Shown piece by piece: positions 30,493 to 45,772 of a stretch of DNA of 64,000 nt (positions within the stretch are counted from its first letter, which is position 1; the number at the start of each line of letters is the position of its first letter). The notes under the pieces were generated by a model that saw only the letters and a program-made list of their open reading frames with translations, was not told where the DNA came from and made no database searches. The stretch comes from a virus: positions 1 to 64,000 of IMG/VR virus record IMGVR_UViG_3300018465_000004; one strand, written 5' to 3'. The translations under genes and the position numbers were made by a program.

Positions 30493-31494
30493 GTGATCGA
30501 GAGCCAGCAGATAGAGATCGCCGACGCGGTGGGCGCCTTACCCGTGCTCCCCGTAGATAACGCGCACGACCGGTACGGAGCCCGCGGTCTGACCGCGGCC
30601 TGGATCGCCCAGCTCACCTCGCGGCACACCCGCAAGGCGTACTTCACCGACCTCGCCCGGTATCTCGCCTGGTGCCAACTGGACGGCCTTGATCCGCTCC
30701 TGGCTCGGCCGGTTGATGTCGACCGGTACAAGGCGACCCTGACCGGCGCAGCCTCCTCGGTTAACCGCCGACTCTCCTCGCTGTCAAGCTGGTACCGGTA
30801 CCTGCACACCAACGGAGCGGTCGATTCCAATCCGCTTGCGGCGGTCCGCCGACCGAATGTCGACCGGGACGCCTCGACAACGCTGGGCATGACCGTCTCG
30901 GAGGTCAAGCAGCTCCTGGTGGTCGCAGATCAGATCGCCGTGGCGGCGGCTGAATGGTCATCGTGGCGACGGCTGACTGCCCACCGGGATCGCGCTGTGG
31001 TCCGCTGCCTGGCGGACATGGGAATGCGGGTTGACGAGGTCGTCCAGCTCGACCGTGAGCACATGACCCACAACCGTGGTTACCGGACCCTGCGCTACAC
31101 CGGAAAGGGCGCCAAGCTCCGCGAGAGGGCGATGCCGGCGCACCTGCTGGAAGCTCTCGACGAGTACCTCGAACTGCGCCCGGATATCCCCGGCGCGTTG
31201 TTCGTGACCCGCAGCCGTGGCGATGCGTACGGCCGGATCGACGCCGCTTGCGTTTTCCGCCTGGTACGCCGGCTCGCGGCGATCGGACAGATGCCGGCCG
31301 CTGACCGGTATTCCCCTCACGTCCTGCGGCACGCCTTCGCGACCAACGCACGGGACGCAGGCATTGCCCTGGAAGACGTCCAGGACGCGATGGGCCACGC
31401 CGATCCCCGGACCACCCGCCGCTATGACCGGGCGCGTAATGCGCTGCACCGGGAGCCGGGGCTGCGACTCGGCGAGCTGTACGCCGACGAATGA
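30493..31494 (+). CDS. tyrosine recombinase (XerC/phage integrase type)
   Basis: 333 residues. A SAM-like N-terminal domain (SRHTRKAYFTDLARYLAW, then VNRRLSSLSSWYRYL) precedes the catalytic domain. The catalytic set is visible: R179 (MGMRVDEV), K in TGKGAKLRE, H276-xx-R279 (HVLRHAFATN), H302 (MGHADPRTT) and Y311 (RRYDRA). It cuts and rejoins DNA by a 3'-phosphotyrosine link. It may integrate the element, resolve multimers or excise a cassette. It is a second recombinase, unrelated to the serine integrase 1 kb away. Confidence 0.92.
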   Translation: MIESQQIEIADAVGALPVLPVDNAHDRYGARGLTAAWIAQLTSRHTRKAYFTDLARYLAWCQLDGLDPLLARPVDVDRYKATLTGAASSVNRRLSSLSSWYRYLHTNGAVDSNPLAAVRRPNVDRDASTTLGMTVSEVKQLLVVADQIAVAAAEWSSWRRLTAHRDRAVVRCLADMGMRVDEVVQLDREHMTHNRGYRTLRYTGKGAKLRERAMPAHLLEALDEYLELRPDIPGALFVTRSRGDAYGRIDAACVFRLVRRLAAIGQMPAADRYSPHVLRHAFATNARDAGIALEDVQDAMGHADPRTTRRYDRARNALHREPGLRLGELYADE

Positions 31495-34160: not shown

Positions 34161-35036
34161 GTGCCCGCGCTCAAGTTCCACGAGATCGCCGAGGTGTTCC
34201 CGCTCTTCCCTGAAGACCGGCTGCGATCGCTCGCCGACTCGATCGCTGTGAACGGTCTTCGGCATCCGATCGTGCTCTTTGAGGGCGCCATCCTCGACGG
34301 CCGGAACCGGTACCGGGCGGCCAAGGTCGCCGGCTACGAGACCCAGCCGAGAGACTTTGTCGACTTCGCCGGTACCTGGGATGACGCGCTCCAGTTCGTT
34401 GCCGACGAGAACCTGGAACGGCGGGACCTCAACCCAGATCAGCGCGCCTTGGCTGCTGCCCGCCTGGCGCAGCTGGGGCGCGGTCGGCCGTCCTCGGAAA
34501 ATGCCGCCACTGGCGGTATTTCTCTCGCTGATGCTGCGGAGAAGGTAGGAGTCAGCCGCAGTCGGGCGGAGCGAGCGCGTTCGGTACTCAACCGTGGCGC
34601 GTCAGAGCTGGCAGATTCGGTCGCGCGAGGAGAGGTAACCGTTCGAGCGGCTGCCGATATCGCGAAGTTGCCGGCTGACGAACAGAAAAAGACCCTTGCC
34701 GGGGGACCGGAGGCCGTCAAGGACGCCGTTGCTGGGGTGCGCGCCCGCGCCCGGCCGCTCGTGCGGCCCGAGCCGACGGAGAGCGAGATCGCTGCCCGTC
34801 GGGGTCAGGTCGCGAACGACCTGGTTGACCGGCTCATAGCTGCCGTCAAGATCGTGGAGCAGGCTGCCAGCAAACTCGCCGCCGGTGAGACGTCGCTGAG
34901 CCAGGGCAGCCAAGAGATCGTGTTGATGGCCGCTGGCCGGCTGAGGTCTGGAGCGGATTGGGTCGCAGCGTTGATCAAGGGCGACGGGTTCTCGGATGAG
35001 GCGTTGGCCGCATGGCTGAGAGGGGAGTCGCAGTGA
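34161..35036 (+). CDS. parB: ParB-like protein
   Basis: 291 residues from GTG. The N-terminal domain (about 1-90) reads FPEDRLRSLADSIAVNGLRH, PIVLFEGAILDGRNRYRAAK and FVADENLERRDL, the ParB/Srx nucleotide-binding fold. ISLADAAEKVGVSRSRAERA gives the helix-turn-helix. ParB proteins bind CTP and centromere sites in plasmid partition, or act as regulators in phages. No ParA is seen in the window. A long helical C-terminus may dimerise. The next gene overlaps by GTGA. Confidence 0.8.
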   Translation: MPALKFHEIAEVFPLFPEDRLRSLADSIAVNGLRHPIVLFEGAILDGRNRYRAAKVAGYETQPRDFVDFAGTWDDALQFVADENLERRDLNPDQRALAAARLAQLGRGRPSSENAATGGISLADAAEKVGVSRSRAERARSVLNRGASELADSVARGEVTVRAAADIAKLPADEQKKTLAGGPEAVKDAVAGVRARARPLVRPEPTESEIAARRGQVANDLVDRLIAAVKIVEQAASKLAAGETSLSQGSQEIVLMAAGRLRSGADWVAALIKGDGFSDEALAAWLRGESQ

Positions 35037-39308: not shown

Positions 39309-39460
39309 CCGACCCGGACGAGCGTCTCCCGCCCCCGGCCGATGATGTGCTGGTGCGCCCGTTCACCTGCGGCGGATTCGACTGCCCCTGCGAGGACGGG
39401 CGAACATGCCCGGACCCCCGGTGTCAGTGCGCCCGCGAGCCCGCAGGGGGTGGCGCTTAA
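39305..39460 (+). CDS. Cys-rich small protein (51 aa)
   Basis: GTGA overlap. FTCGGFDCPCEDGRTCPDPR and CQCAREP contain six Cys in 25 residues, probably a zinc-binding or disulfide-rich module. Function unknown. Confidence 0.5.
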   Translation: MTDPDERLPPPADDVLVRPFTCGGFDCPCEDGRTCPDPRCQCAREPAGGGA

Positions 39461-39554
39461 CGCGCCGGCTGGCCCAATTCACCACCGCGTTGTTGCAGCA
39501 AGAAGAGTCCAGCCGCGCTTGGAGTCGTACTTCAGCGTTGAAAGGAAGCCTTGC

Positions 39555-39998
39555 GTGTTGACCACCGCTGTAAAGACCCGCCGCCGGATCACTGTCACGG
39601 CGGTTCGCGAAGTCCTGGAGGAGATCGCCCGGGACTACCCGTGGCGCCAGGACCGCCGCGTGACCGACGAGCGTCCGGTTCGCTATGTCGACTTCGGACA
39701 GCCGTCCTGCCTGGTCGCCCACGTCCTGATCCGGCTCGGCTACTCGGTGGGCGTGCTTCGCGCCCTGGATGCCGAACATCGCACCGGCGAGCTGTTCCGG
39801 GCGGGCGGGGTCAAGGTCGCCGAGTCTCGACATCCGGCCCTGCGCCGGATCGATCCGACGGCGCGCCGGCTCCTGCAATACGTTCAAGATCAACAAGACC
39901 GTGGAGAGGCGTGGGGTCGCATCGTCGCCGCCGCCTTCCGCCCGTCCAGGTTCTTCCCCCGCCTCGACAGGGAGCGCAGACCGTGGTTGTGCGCCTAG
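39555..39998 (+). CDS. hypothetical protein (147 aa)
   Basis: GTG after AAAGGAAG. Mainly helical with basic ends; the middle has VRYVDFGQPSCLVAHVLIRL and GYSVGVLRALDAE. This arrangement recurs in small proteins of actinophages, but no function is known to me. Confidence 0.55.
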   Translation: MLTTAVKTRRRITVTAVREVLEEIARDYPWRQDRRVTDERPVRYVDFGQPSCLVAHVLIRLGYSVGVLRALDAEHRTGELFRAGGVKVAESRHPALRRIDPTARRLLQYVQDQQDRGEAWGRIVAAAFRPSRFFPRLDRERRPWLCA

Positions 39999-40243
39999 AC
40001 CGCCAGACCGGCACGTGCGCCCATTGTGGACGCCGGGACGTGGGCACCCCTGACGCTGGCTACAGCGGGATCAACGGCGAGCGGCTGTGTCACCCGAACG
40101 TCAACGGCAGACCCGACTGCTATCGGCTGGTGACCGTCTACAACCACCCGCTGGACTGCCGGTGCGAGGACCGGGTCCCGATCGCCGGTAGTCGTGATGC
40201 AGCGATCTGGGCCGGTCCCCGCCAGGTGGTCGTCAGGGTCTGA
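39983..40243 (+). CDS. small zinc-binding protein (86 aa)
   Basis: GTG in the end of the preceding gene. GTCAHCGRRDVG, LCHPNVNG, DCYRL and DCRCED form a Cys/His series. Convergent overlap of 11 bases with the minus-strand gene at its end. Function unknown. Confidence 0.5.
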   Translation: MVVRLDRQTGTCAHCGRRDVGTPDAGYSGINGERLCHPNVNGRPDCYRLVTVYNHPLDCRCEDRVPIAGSRDAAIWAGPRQVVVRV

Positions 40244-40643
40244 GCCGGGAGACGTCGTAGCGGCCGTCCCAGGTCCGCAACCACCCCTCCGGTTCGCCTC
40301 GCGGGTTGCCACGCCAGACAGCGATGGCGGAGGTGATCCGGATGAAGCCGGTCGTCGAGACAGCTCTATACACCCAGAACCGGGGCGGATCGTTGAAGCC
40401 TTCCACCTCGCCCACGGTCCAGGTGGGGGAGTTGCGGGTCAGGGTGATCGGCGGCCAGTCCTCATCGGGCGGTGTGTAGTGCAGCACCAGAACGCGGGGA
40501 TTCTCCGGCTCCTCGTCCCGGGTCAGCGCGACCCCGTGGGACATGGCTACCCGGATCAGGTGCGCGGCCTGTTGCTGGACGAGGGCGATGGCCCTGCGGT
40601 CGTCCTCGTCCTCGGTCGTGAGGCATGAATGAAAAAGGTCCAC
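40233..40643 (-). CDS. hypothetical protein (136 aa)
   Basis: Start assigned at a GTG at 40643; no clear ribosome site. RRAIALVQQQAAHLIRVAMS, then VLVLHYTPPDEDWPPITLTR and WLRTWDGRYDVSRLRP. It is the only minus-strand gene in this operon region, divergent from the gene at 40676. No family is recognised. Confidence 0.5.
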   Translation of the reverse strand: MDLFHSCLTTEDEDDRRAIALVQQQAAHLIRVAMSHGVALTRDEEPENPRVLVLHYTPPDEDWPPITLTRNSPTWTVGEVEGFNDPPRFWVYRAVSTTGFIRITSAIAVWRGNPRGEPEGWLRTWDGRYDVSRLRP

Positions 40644-40675
40644 AGGGGACCAACGATGATCCACGGAGGCGAGAT

Positions 40676-40867
40676 GTGGGACGGGTAACCGACCCAGCGG
40701 AGCAGGTCGTTCGAGCCCGTAGATGCCGCGGGTGTGGTGCTGGCCCGCAGATGCCGTGCACCAACAAGCCCTCCGGCCGGCGGATGCACATCTCGCACAA
40801 GGCCCGTTGGGACGACGCCCGACCCGAGCTGGCGGTGCCGACCGCACCAGCCGGCTTCATCCTCTAG
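40676..40867 (+). CDS. small zinc-finger protein (63 aa)
   Basis: GTG at 40676 six bases after GGAGGCGA; an ATG further upstream lacks a site. CRGCGAGPQMPC then MHISHKARW is a compact C2/C-H finger of the CxxCGAxxxxPC type known in small actinophage proteins. Function unknown. Confidence 0.6.
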   Translation: MGRVTDPAEQVVRARRCRGCGAGPQMPCTNKPSGRRMHISHKARWDDARPELAVPTAPAGFIL

Positions 40868-40870
40868 CGC

Positions 40871-40897
40871 GGAAAACCCCCGTCCTCGTCGGTAGAA
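40871..40897 (+). promoter_or_regulatory. phage-type promoter (GGAAAA-N13-CGGTAGAA)
   Basis: GGAAAA (40871-40876), 13 bases, CGGT AGAA (40890-40897), with the flank GCGC shared with the promoter at 10149. It drives a 360-base stretch with strong RNA structure rather than an immediate gene. Confidence 0.55.
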
Positions 40898-40903
40898 CAG
40901 GGT

Positions 40904-41201
40904 GGGTGCCAGTACCTCCTGCGGCTGGCACCCTCCACAAACTGGGCCGGGTCGTGGTAGCCGCAAGCGTCTTCCCTGGATGTGCGGCGCGCTCCCCCCC
41001 AGGGGCGCCACGCCCCGGCCCCCTGGCTCCGCCACCGAGCCGCGGAGTTGGGGGTGTAGGGCGGGATCGGTAGTCCCGGGTTGGTCGACCATCAACTCGG
41101 GACGGGGGAAGACCAGTCCCGCCCTGCACTCTCGATGAGTTGTCGAGCCGATGAAACAGGAGCCCCCGTGCGGCAGCCGCCACCGTCTGACCGGCGGGGG
41201 C
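40904..41201 (+). ncRNA. structured leader or non-coding RNA
   Basis: No convincing gene lies between the promoter-like element and 41257. GGGTGCCAG (40904-40912) and CTGGCACCC (40925-40933) form a hairpin at the likely 5' end with CCTCCT in the loop. GGGCGGGA/TCCCGCCC (41059-41066, 41117-41124) encloses a hairpin at 41074-41102. GCCCCCG/CGGGGGC (41162-41168, 41195-41201) follows. Could be a regulatory RNA or a leader for the HNH gene. Confidence 0.45.
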
Positions 41202-41256
41202 CCCAGGCTCAACCGAAGTGTCAGCGCGCTGTGAATGCAAACCCGAAGGGATCCAC

Positions 41257-41319
41257 ATGTACGGGCTTCTGAACGTTCTGGTCAATGTCTTCAGCGTCAA
41301 CTTCTACGGCTGCTGCTGA
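41257..41319 (+). CDS. possible 20-residue leader peptide
   Basis: ATG after GAAGGGATC. Twenty residues ending VFSVNFYGCC, with the stop past the ATG of the HNH gene at 41285. It may couple translation of that gene after the structured RNA. Very short; speculative. Confidence 0.3.
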   Translation: MYGLLNVLVNVFSVNFYGCC

Positions 41320-41749
41320 CCCGAGTCCCGACCCGGACTCAGACACGGGGCTGGCACTGATTCCCTCGGAGGGTGGGGGAGAGGTGCCAGCCCCGTCCCG
41401 TCGCATCAGGATCCGCCGCCCCCGCCGGCTGGCCGTCGTCACGGGTGAACCGAAGCCCCGCGCCCACGGCGCCCAGAGCCCACGCAAGTGGTTCCCCGGC
41501 ATGACCTGCGCCATCTGCGGCGAGGCCGTTCGAGCTTGGCAGCCGTTCAACTTCGACCACCAGGTTCCGATGTCCAAGGGCGGCCGGCGCGGCAAGGCCA
41601 ACAAGACCTTCACCCACACGTTGTGCAACAGCGTCAAAGGTGACCGCTACCCGTTCAACCTGCGCACCCCGGCGGAACGCGAAGCCGTCCGCGCCGTCGT
41701 CTCCGAGCGCACCTATGCCCGGCTGGAGCGGACCTGGCGCGGCGCCTGA
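41285..41749 (+). CDS. HNH endonuclease-like protein
   Basis: 154 residues. A Pro/Ser-rich N-terminus, then a zinc/HNH core: MTCAICGEAV, FNFDHQVPMSKGGRRG, THTLCNSVKG. Two CxxC-type pairs bind structural zinc; D-H begins the catalytic part; the last His of the motif is replaced by N in LCNSVK. HNH enzymes nick or cut DNA in packaging, defence or homing. No ribosome site precedes the ATG; translation may depend on the upstream peptide. Confidence 0.7.
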   Translation: MSSASTSTAAADPSPDPDSDTGLALIPSEGGGEVPAPSRRIRIRRPRRLAVVTGEPKPRAHGAQSPRKWFPGMTCAICGEAVRAWQPFNFDHQVPMSKGGRRGKANKTFTHTLCNSVKGDRYPFNLRTPAEREAVRAVVSERTYARLERTWRGA

Positions 41750-42086: not shown

Positions 42087-42350
42087 ATGACCAAGAAGAT
42101 CGCCATCAGTCTCCCTGACGATGTGGCTGACCATCTCGCAGGACAGCCCAACGTGTCTGCGTACGTCGCTGCTGCGGTCCGCGCCCGGATGAACCCCAGC
42201 CGCCTCGAAGAGATGCTTCGCGCGGTCGGGTATGAGATCACTGAAGCGGGCAAGTCGGCCTGGCGTGACCGGCTCGCTCAGCCGCTCGGCCGCGCAGCGC
42301 TGGAACGCAGCCGGATGTTCCGGGAGAAGTACGGAATTCCCCAAGGGTGA
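42087..42350 (+). CDS. ribbon-helix-helix antitoxin-like protein
   Basis: 87 residues. MTKKIAISLPDDVADHLAGQ and SAYVAAAVRARM fit a ribbon-helix-helix DNA-binding half. The C-terminus VGYEITEAGKSAWRDRLAQP is similar to that of the gene at 42792. It is coupled by GTGA to a PIN-like gene, the arrangement of VapBC-type modules. Confidence 0.6.
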   Translation: MTKKIAISLPDDVADHLAGQPNVSAYVAAAVRARMNPSRLEEMLRAVGYEITEAGKSAWRDRLAQPLGRAALERSRMFREKYGIPQG

Positions 42351-42778
42351 ACCAGGTCGCTGTCGTCCTGGCGGCCTCTGCGCTCAGGCAATACGCCCGT
42401 GGTCCGGTTGAGGGCTTGGCTGTCGCCGAGCTGATCAGTGAGGTTCGAGACGAAGGTCGGCAGGTCGCCATCTCTGCGGTCTCGCTGGCGCAGGCGATTG
42501 CCGTCCAAGGTCCAGACCGCGGCTCCTTCGGGCTCGCGCTGCTGGAGTGGTTCACTTCCGACGGATCCGACTTTCTCGTCGTCGAGATGGCGCTCGAACA
42601 GGTGCTGCCGGTCGGCAACATCGCCCGCGATTTCGGCATCGAAGTCGCCCTCGCACACGAGGTGCTGCTCGCCACCCGGTTCAATGCTCAGTTCGCGACC
42701 ACTGAGCCCGACGTCGCCCGGCGGGTGCTCGGGGATGACTGGCCCATCCTGGACGTGACCCAGGGACCCTTTAGCTAA
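42347..42778 (+). CDS. PIN-domain-like protein
   Basis: 143 residues, GTGA overlap with the RHH gene. VAVVLAASALRQYARGP resembles the PIN start (VLDASALLAYL) but the catalytic Asp is replaced. VSLAQAIAVQG and FATTEPDVARRVLGDDWPIL keep the fold order. Active nuclease is doubtful; possibly an inactive PIN domain or a different toxin type. Confidence 0.5.
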   Translation: MNQVAVVLAASALRQYARGPVEGLAVAELISEVRDEGRQVAISAVSLAQAIAVQGPDRGSFGLALLEWFTSDGSDFLVVEMALEQVLPVGNIARDFGIEVALAHEVLLATRFNAQFATTEPDVARRVLGDDWPILDVTQGPFS

Positions 42779-42791
42779 TAGGAGGTGCCGC

Positions 42792-42974
42792 TTGCAGACT
42801 GAGGACGATCGCCCCGCTACCGACTTTGACGCTGAGACCTACCGGATTACCGGCCGACGTCAGCTCGAAGAAGCGGGTTTCGCGATCACTGACGAGGGCA
42901 TTCAGCGGTGGCGTGCAAGGTTCCAGGCCGCTCGCGACCGGATCCAGGCCCGCCGCGATGAGCGGACCTCATGA
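42792..42974 (+). CDS. antitoxin-like small protein (60 aa)
   Basis: TTG with a strong AGGAGGTG site. AGFAITDEGIQRWRARFQAA repeats the C-terminal motif of the 42087 gene, so the two share an ancestor or partner surface. Next gene overlaps by ATGA. Confidence 0.5.
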   Translation: MQTEDDRPATDFDAETYRITGRRQLEEAGFAITDEGIQRWRARFQAARDRIQARRDERTS

Positions 42975-43189
42975 GGAACTACTCCGTCGAAGAGTTCGAA
43001 CGTCGCTTCGACGAGCTGCTGGGCCTTGTCGTGACCGGTGAGGCCATCGGCATCTCCGTCCGCGGCAAGCCTGCCGCTGTTGTCGTGCCGCGGGCCTACT
43101 ACGACCTGCTGACAGCCAAGGCCGACGCCAACGACAGGTCCGTGCGGGCCGTCGAGGAACACCTGGCCGACCCGGGACTGCACAGCTAG
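42971..43189 (+). CDS. Phd/YefM-type antitoxin
   Basis: 72 residues. MRNYSVEEFERRFDELLGLV and SVRGKPAAVVVPRAYYDLL match the Phd/YefM N-terminal fold (V...F...L..V..GE...I...GKPVAVLVP..Y). Antitoxins of this type repress their operon and block a toxin. The toxin partner is not obvious here. Confidence 0.65.
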   Translation: MRNYSVEEFERRFDELLGLVVTGEAIGISVRGKPAAVVVPRAYYDLLTAKADANDRSVRAVEEHLADPGLHS

Positions 43190-43231: not shown

Positions 43232-45772
43232 GTGACGCGCAACTACGGGCTGATCAACTCGATCGACGAGCTGGCCCGGTTCTGCGACCGCCTGTCCCAG
43301 GGCGACGACGCGATCGCCTTCGACATCGAGACCGGCTACCTCGGGGTGGAGCGGGAGAAGTTTTCGCTGCACCCCGAGACCGCTCTCGTCGCCGGGATCA
43401 GCTTCACCGTCTCAGCCGACTGGGCGCGCTACGCCCCACTCGGCCACGATGATTACCCCAACCTGGACAACCTCGACGCCTCCCGGCTGCTCTGGCCCCT
43501 GCTCAACACCGGACGCGGCGTCGCACACAATGCCCCGTTCGAGCTAAGGCATCTTGCCAGGTGGTTCCGGGATCTCCTTAGCGATGACCCGGACTTCGGC
43601 GAGCAGGTGCGCGCCAGTGATGGCTACTTCCCGGTCCGAAGCGACACCCAGGTTGAGTCCTACCTTGCCGCGGAGCACCCGCAGTTCGGTCTGAAGTACC
43701 TGGCCTGGGAGATCTTCGGCATCAAGATGACCGAGCTGCACGAGCTGTTTCCCGGGCTGGCCAAGAACAAGCGGAAGTACCTGCGGTTCAACACCCTCGA
43801 CCCCCGTGAGCCCCGAGTTTTCAACTACGCCTGCGAGGACAGCGTCGGTTCGCTGCTGCTGCACCAGCGCTACCACGAATACGTGCGGGAGAAGCCGCTC
43901 TACCCGGTAGAGATGGGCATCGTCGAGGAGTGCATCCCTCCGATGGAGGACTTCGGCGTCCGCTACGACTGGCTCCTCATGCGACGCACTGCCGAAGCCC
44001 TGCGGTCCTTCCGGGACCGGTACAACGCCGAGATCATGCGCGAGCTGTCCGACATGGTCGGACAGCCTGTCGCCATAAACATCGCCTCCCCGCCGCAGCT
44101 GTCCAAGCTGTTGTTCGAGCAGCTCGGCTTCCGCACCACCGTCTACACCGCCAAGACCCGGGACCTGCCTCCCGAGGAACGCAAGATGTCCACCGGCAAG
44201 ATCGCCCTCGCCGGCCTCGCGAAGAAGCACCCGGTCGTGCAGAAGATCCGCGACTGGAAGGAGATGACCCGGCTCCTCGGCACCTACCTGGAGAAGTACG
44301 AGGGTCTCTACGCCTACGCCGCGGACGGCCGGACCCACCCCAACCACATGTCCGCGGTCGTCGTCACCGGCCGCTTCGCAGTCGGGGATCCGCCGTACCA
44401 GCAGTCGCCGAAGGTGTACCACTACGACCTGGAGCCGGCCCGCGAGGCACACGCCCAGCATGCGCAGGCCCACGGTCCAAAGTGCACCTGCGACGAGTTC
44501 CCGCCGCCGCCGGACACCTGCTTCAAGTTCAACTTCCGCGACGTCATCGTCGCCCCGCCCGACCACTACATCCTCGGCTTCGACCTGAGCCAGGCCGAGC
44601 TTCGCGCCATTGCCGGTGAAGCCCAGGAGCCGGCGCTGCTCAAGGCGTTCGCGGATGGAACCGATGTCCACACCCTGACCGCGGCCCTGATGCTCAAGGT
44701 CTCCGTCGAGGACGTCACCAAAGACCAGCGTGACATCGGCAAGACGATGAACTTCGCACTGCTCTACGGCATGCGCGAGAAGAGTCTCGCCGACCGGCTC
44801 GGCATCCCGATCGAGGAAGCCAAGGAGCTGTACGAGAAGTACTTCTCGGTCTACTCCCGCATCGCCGCGTGGGCCGCCAAGCAGGTCGAGCTGGGCCGCA
44901 CCTACGGCTACGTCACCTCGCGGTTCGGCCGCAAGCTTCCCATCTGGGAGTACCGCTCGGAGAAGCGCTGGATCCGGCAGAAGGGTGACCGGGCCTGCGT
45001 CAACTACCCGATCCAGGGCTCCGCCACCGGAGACTTCGTCAAGATCGCCATGGTCCGGGCCCAACGCGCCCTGCGCGCGGCCGGCATCGCCGACCGGGTC
45101 CACCTGGTCATGAACGTCCACGATGCGCTGGAGTTCTATGTCCACCGCACCTTGCTGCCGCAGGACGTCATCCGCATCCTCCAGCCGGCGGTCATCTTTC
45201 CTGTCGACGGATGGCCCGCCATGAAGGCCGACTGGCACTTCGGCCGCAAGTGGGGCAGCCCCTACGAGATCGAGGTCACCGAGGACAACCGATTCATCGT
45301 CAAGGGTGAGGTCGAGTACGAACTCAAGCCGTCCATTGAGGAGGACGAGGACACCGGGGAAGAGGTCGAGGTCTTCCCTGAGATCGACTACGACGTCCTG
45401 CGCCAGGCCCTCGGCCGCGACCCGGAGCCGGCGCCGCCGCCTGTCGTGCCGCAACAACGCACTTCCGAGGCCGAGCCGCACGCGCCGGCGCAACCCTCCA
45501 CAGAGGAGGGCCGTCAGCTCATCCTCGAACTCCTCGACATGCCCACCGCAGCCGGCTACGAGAGGTTCCTCGAACTCCTCGACAGCCTCCCCGGCCCGCA
45601 CCAGCTCACCCTGCGCACCCCGGACGGAGAGCTGCCCCTGTCGCTAGGGGTCGGTACCAGTCTCGGTACCAAGGACTTGGCGCAGGTATACCTGCTGCTC
45701 GGTGAGGCGAAGCTCTACTTCGACGCCGCCGACGTCGACTCAAGCACGTTGCTCGACGGGATCACCCTGTAA
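43232..45772 (+). CDS. polA: DNA polymerase I, family A, with 3'-5' exonuclease
   Basis: 846 residues. Exonuclease motifs: AFDIETGYLGVE (D31, E33), VAHNAPFELRHL (N100, E104, where D is usual), and YACEDSVGSLLL. Polymerase motif A is FDLSQAELRAIAGE (D451), motif B RDIGKTMNFALLYGM, motif C MNVHDALEF (about residue 630). No 5' nuclease domain. The last 140 residues are an extra acidic/proline linker and a small domain (LTLRTPDGELPLSLGVG) not found in short family A enzymes. It is the replicative polymerase of the element. The leaderless-looking start follows the phage promoter. Confidence 0.93.
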   Translation: MTRNYGLINSIDELARFCDRLSQGDDAIAFDIETGYLGVEREKFSLHPETALVAGISFTVSADWARYAPLGHDDYPNLDNLDASRLLWPLLNTGRGVAHNAPFELRHLARWFRDLLSDDPDFGEQVRASDGYFPVRSDTQVESYLAAEHPQFGLKYLAWEIFGIKMTELHELFPGLAKNKRKYLRFNTLDPREPRVFNYACEDSVGSLLLHQRYHEYVREKPLYPVEMGIVEECIPPMEDFGVRYDWLLMRRTAEALRSFRDRYNAEIMRELSDMVGQPVAINIASPPQLSKLLFEQLGFRTTVYTAKTRDLPPEERKMSTGKIALAGLAKKHPVVQKIRDWKEMTRLLGTYLEKYEGLYAYAADGRTHPNHMSAVVVTGRFAVGDPPYQQSPKVYHYDLEPAREAHAQHAQAHGPKCTCDEFPPPPDTCFKFNFRDVIVAPPDHYILGFDLSQAELRAIAGEAQEPALLKAFADGTDVHTLTAALMLKVSVEDVTKDQRDIGKTMNFALLYGMREKSLADRLGIPIEEAKELYEKYFSVYSRIAAWAAKQVELGRTYGYVTSRFGRKLPIWEYRSEKRWIRQKGDRACVNYPIQGSATGDFVKIAMVRAQRALRAAGIADRVHLVMNVHDALEFYVHRTLLPQDVIRILQPAVIFPVDGWPAMKADWHFGRKWGSPYEIEVTEDNRFIVKGEVEYELKPSIEEDEDTGEEVEVFPEIDYDVLRQALGRDPEPAPPPVVPQQRTSEAEPHAPAQPSTEEGRQLILELLDMPTAAGYERFLELLDSLPGPHQLTLRTPDGELPLSLGVGTSLGTKDLAQVYLLLGEAKLYFDAADVDSSTLLDGITL

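Follow-up and report, generated by a model that had tools for sequence, protein, structure and literature searches.

RNA structure sequesters the ribosome-binding sites of several phage homing endonuclease genes, namely those for I-TevI, I-TevII, I-TevIII, segB, and Aeh1 mobE (PMC2988022, PMC3014915). In cases of the I-TevI/mobE type, a late promoter also yields transcripts that are free of the hairpin (PMC2988022, PMC3014915). Stable hairpins have other uses: in Streptomyces, terminators are long, stable, and poor in U (PMC12207403).

The locus that we describe here, from a large phage with a GC-rich genome that is known from environmental sequence, can be compared with both. A small HNH gene follows a structured leader, and its probable start codon lies inside a predicted hairpin. 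Our tentative view, to which we give a probability of about 0.42, is that the HNH gene encodes an accessory, free-standing nuclease, that a hairpin holds back its translation by sequestering the start codon, and that the arrangement works like I-TevI or Aeh1 mobE.

A variable stretch upstream of the DNA polymerase

The window that we analysed covers the first 64 kb of a 137.6-kb virus record from IMG/VR, and its GC content is 66%. The closest matches of its DNA polymerase I are two uncultured phage records, L048 and L049 (62-63% identity), and the nearest named phage by this protein is Microbacterium phage Magritte (37%). The record's first ten bases (GCCGCAGCGA, positions 1-10) are found again at its end (137591-137600), which is possibly a short assembly overlap from a circular or permuted genome. 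A gene that matches an integrase family (phrog_1, 4e-37; 30493-31494) and a ParB-like gene (34161-35036), in a phage of this size, suggest a temperate or plasmid-like life style.

The leader and the HNH gene lie in a variable stretch that runs from a conserved gene of 218 aa (39342-39998, also present in L049) to the polymerase gene at 43232. Just upstream of the leader is a small zinc-finger-like gene (40625-40867, PF24623). A gene-like frame lies on the opposite strand (40233-40643, minus strand, 39 bits) among plus-strand genes. Beyond the HNH gene, there are two small overlapping genes at 42087-42778 (87 and 143 aa) that look like a CopG/PIN-type pair, with no family model to back this, and a gene for a Phd-type antitoxin (42971-43189, TIGR01552, 36.1 bits, which is over the cut-off). 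Together these may form a toxin-antitoxin island that adjoins the HNH locus.

The two polymerase relatives have other genes upstream of the polymerase, with no clean empty site that could be aligned, and their whole records contain no HNH match at E <= 0.01. Judging from this gene content, the HNH cassette appears to be accessory. More broadly, searches of phages, IMG/VR, and GTDB genomes with DNA or peptide patterns found no homologues of the leader, the peptide, or the HNH gene, save for generic HNH-domain matches. Short DNA matches in related records are chance-level fragments, and the phage's own genome has no second copy of the leader.

A structured leader without a recognizable promoter

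Between the zinc-finger-like gene and a short peptide frame, there are about 390 nt of GC-rich DNA (40868-41256, plus strand) in which none of the frames tested looks coding. The minimum free energy of this leader is lower than that of dinucleotide-shuffled sequences, more so on the plus strand (z = -4.15) than on the minus strand (z = -2.23; 100 shuffles), and its predicted fold is a chain of closely packed helices. The first-pass annotation had described a stretch that resembles a regulatory leader, driven by a strong phage-type promoter. A structured non-coding stretch 5' of the HNH gene, folding better as RNA of the plus strand, is supported, but the promoter is not. A scan with the sigma-70 consensus found none at 40871-40904: the best site has 7 of 12 matches, a score that is common in this genome (about 0.4 sites expected per 50 nt, or about 1 per 130 nt by chance). 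The hexamer TANNNT is absent from 40868-40960, and the 31-nt segment in question has no second copy in the window, with up to three mismatches allowed. We reject this promoter. Part of the region (40889-40907) is partly repeated within helix B, which is described below. As a separate observation, CTAGCGCTA has three plus-strand copies in L029 (record positions 65897, 69704, and 73822), each about 65-115 nt 5' of a called gene, and may be a promoter or operator motif of the phage.

The individual helices differ in how far they exceed chance, as judged from 400 dinucleotide shuffles for each of hairpins A, B, C, and D. The strongest is hairpin B (41054-41128, plus strand), a two-level helix with 13 outer and 13 inner base pairs around a 1x8 asymmetric internal loop. 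None of the 400 shuffles was as stable (z = -5.8), and it ranks 14th of about 2,130 windows in a fold scan of the whole window; the two-level helix that had been noticed at 41059-41124 is borne out, with slightly wider limits. A stem had also been proposed at 41162-41201, and we do find one (D, 41160-41203, plus strand), although it exceeds chance only modestly (z = -2.5; 3 of 400 shuffles). Hairpin C is unremarkable (z = +0.6). A branched helix is predicted at 40944-41021 on the plus strand, with 14-nt arms that are 93% complementary and two inner hairpins (z = -2.25 on the plus strand and +0.08 on the minus strand).

The 5' hairpin (A, 40904-40933, plus strand) has 10 base pairs and the loop ACCTCCTGCG. 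The CCTCCT in this loop had been singled out, and the sequence is present, but the fold is not clearly better than chance (z = -1.6): 26 of 400 shuffles fold equally well, which is ordinary for such a GC content. In an RNA loop, CCTCCT has the same sense as the 3' end of 16S rRNA and could therefore base-pair with a ribosome-binding site. Near hairpin A, GGAGGG at 41368-41373 is the only strong site of this kind; it lies at a distance of 450 nt, within the loop of another hairpin (E, below). These two hairpins also contain an exact 10-nt complement, GGCTGGCACC (40923-40932, in A) and GGTGCCAGCC (41383-41392, in E), 450 nt apart. We spotted this pairing post hoc, and 31 of 5,000 shuffles reach it. 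For this reason, and because the two cross-pairings would make a pseudoknot and not a simple switch, we do not build on it.

By Rfam match, the leader is not a cis-regulatory leader or riboswitch of a known class: no family reaches its gathering threshold, and the matches at E <= 10 are at chance level. Its probable role is that of a 5' region that insulates or is prone to termination.

The leader is followed by a 20-codon frame (41257-41319, plus strand), as the first-pass annotation had it, with AAGG 7 nt 5' of its ATG. The candidate peptide, MYGLLNVLVNVFSVNFYGCC, is hydrophobic with spaced Asn residues. The frame's codon score is gene-like (+0.45 bits/codon), which puts it in the top 5 of 380 short ATG frames outside genes and in the top 3 of the 84 that are intergenic. 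On this basis the peptide may be real.

A hairpin over the probable start of the HNH gene

An HNH gene had been noted downstream of the leader, and an HNH frame is there: it matches Pfam PF01844 at 21.4 bits, which is exactly at the cut-off, and PHROG_338 at 6e-9. Its listed start, however, seems to be misplaced. The listed open reading frame begins at ATG 41285, within the peptide frame, and its first codons score -1.26 bits/codon, which is lower than at the start of any of the 91 well-supported genes (the lowest is -0.73). We therefore disfavour ATG 41285. The best-scoring start is GTG 41384, which would give a protein of 121 aa (41384-41749, plus strand), and GGAGGG (41368-41373, plus strand), 10 nt 5' of this GTG, is a putative Shine-Dalgarno sequence. 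From these signals, GTG 41384 is the probable start.

This start coincides with the most informative element of the locus, a hairpin that lies just beyond the interval considered in the first pass (40871-41319) and was missed there. Hairpin E (41342-41402, plus strand) has a 14-bp stem (41345-41358 with 41383-41396), an inner helix of 8 bp, and the apical loop GAGGG, and the GTG is in its 3' arm. None of 400 shuffles was as stable, its 120-nt window has a z of -6.3, and it ranks 5th of the roughly 2,130 windows scanned. In the predicted fold, GTG 41384 is fully paired. Opening the start region would cost 29.7 kcal/mol, the highest value for any of the 195 called genes (median 11.1), although we noticed this rank after the fact and it partly reflects uncertain start calls. 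Sequestration of the start by hairpin E depends on GTG 41384 being the start; if ATG 41285 were the true start, then the hairpin would fall within the coding region. Of the possible regulatory features, this one at the probable HNH start is the best supported, and it lies outside the interval first described.

How would this work? Transcripts that read through from upstream would run through hairpin E into the HNH gene. On such RNA, the GTG would be paired within the 14-bp stem, and just five bases of the ribosome site would be exposed in the loop. With the start locked in the hairpin, little nuclease would be made. The nuclease could be made if a transcript began within or past the 5' arm, or if the hairpin were opened. 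We saw no internal promoter from which transcription could skip the hairpin: 41130-41390 contains neither a sigma-70-like site nor a TANNNT hexamer, and other promoter types are possible. The leader and the 20-residue frame share the variable stretch with the HNH gene.

Start occlusion is not a family rule, because the HNH genes of more distant related phages do not consistently have a hairpin over their starts: opening energies at their plausible starts are mostly at background.

Other explanations

The main rival to start-codon sequestration is that hairpin E is an intrinsic terminator, without a U-tract, of the peptide's transcript; the HNH gene would then be expressed weakly or from a promoter of its own. 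This is possible but, we think, unlikely. The hairpin begins 23 nt past the peptide's stop codon, which fits a terminator, and the genome is rich in strong hairpins that are centred 10-50 nt past stop codons and mostly lack U-tracts; the U-poor terminators of Streptomyces also support it. But where those other hairpins occur, the next start codon mostly follows after about 50-250 nt, while hairpin E spans both the ribosome site and the start of the gene that follows. Also, the helix of hairpin E is interrupted by an internal loop and includes several G-U pairs, in contrast to the near-perfect palindromes elsewhere in the genome. Finally, the peptide is itself only a candidate.

Could the leader, the hairpins, and the HNH frame instead be ordinary by-products of a genome with 66% GC, a set of intergenic palindromes and terminators that do nothing together? 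Hairpin A and stem C differ little, if at all, from chance, many intergenic hairpins are equally strong, and we found neither a promoter nor conservation. Against this, no shuffle matches hairpin B or E, the plus strand of the leader folds better than its minus strand, and hairpin E sits exactly over the favoured start. We find this explanation doubtful, and somewhat harder to accept than a terminator.

It seems improbable that the leader works together with the 20-residue peptide as a unit of the attenuation or type I toxin kind, with a structured mRNA, a small hydrophobic peptide, and an island that contains a Phd-type antitoxin gene (the one at 42971-43189). The gene-like codons of the peptide, and its hydrophobic sequence with spaced Asn, would suit such a unit. 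But opening its ribosome site would cost about as much as at other starts (9.1 kcal/mol versus the median of 11.1), no antisense promoter was found on the minus strand, and the peptide has no relative in phages, IMG/VR, or GTDB genomes. We are even more skeptical that the compact leader, at about 300 nt, represents a new class of structured phage RNA whose partners are the short hydrophobic peptide and the HNH protein, and which might, for instance, sense translation of the peptide to gate the nuclease.

Least likely of all, and barely plausible, is that the HNH protein derives from an RNA-guided nuclease and uses the leader as a guide-type RNA (an omega-RNA or HEARO-like RNA): a structured RNA does lie directly 5' of the HNH gene, and the HNH domain is weakly similar to models of Cas9d (6.5e-5) and IscB (0.0086), but these scores are far under the cut-offs (21.7 of 375 and 15.2 of 175, respectively), the 121-aa protein has no RuvC domain and no RRXRR or PLMP match in Pfam, and Rfam gives no HEARO match.

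Comparison with known systems

The locus resembles HEARO RNAs, or omega-RNAs with IscB-type nucleases, in that a structured RNA adjoins an HNH gene, and differs from them in having no Rfam covariance match and in a protein without RuvC or PLMP domains. It also resembles the U-poor intrinsic terminators found in Streptomyces and in other bacteria of high GC: a long GC-rich hairpin soon after a stop codon, with no U-tract. Hairpin E and its position past the stop both fit, and it would be such a terminator if an RNA 3' end lay just downstream. Unlike those terminators, it is imperfect, with an internal loop, and it overlaps the start of the next gene.

Should start-codon sequestration be wrong, then what we describe is just a usual kind of terminator next to a small HNH gene. 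If it is right, then start-codon sequestration of selfish nuclease genes, which is known from T4-type phages, would have arisen among large high-GC phages of an unrelated lineage. That would suggest a general need to keep selfish nuclease genes quiet.

Compared with the I-TevI/mobE type, we found no late promoter inside hairpin E, and no promoter in 41130-41390 that would give a transcript without the 5' arm. Because no promoter that bypasses the hairpin was seen, we say that the locus works like this type rather than that it is a member. The hairpin also buries the start codon instead of the Shine-Dalgarno core, there is no sequence relation, and the phage belongs to a different group. On the other hand, the gene encodes an HNH endonuclease-like protein, where members of the type have HNH or GIY-YIG, and its start codon, given a start at GTG 41384, is in a stable predicted hairpin. 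As with I-TevI, I-TevII, I-TevIII, and segB of T4 and mobE of Aeh1, a phage endonuclease gene would have its start held in a stable hairpin on read-through transcripts, and Aeh1 mobE is likewise an HNH endonuclease and free-standing.
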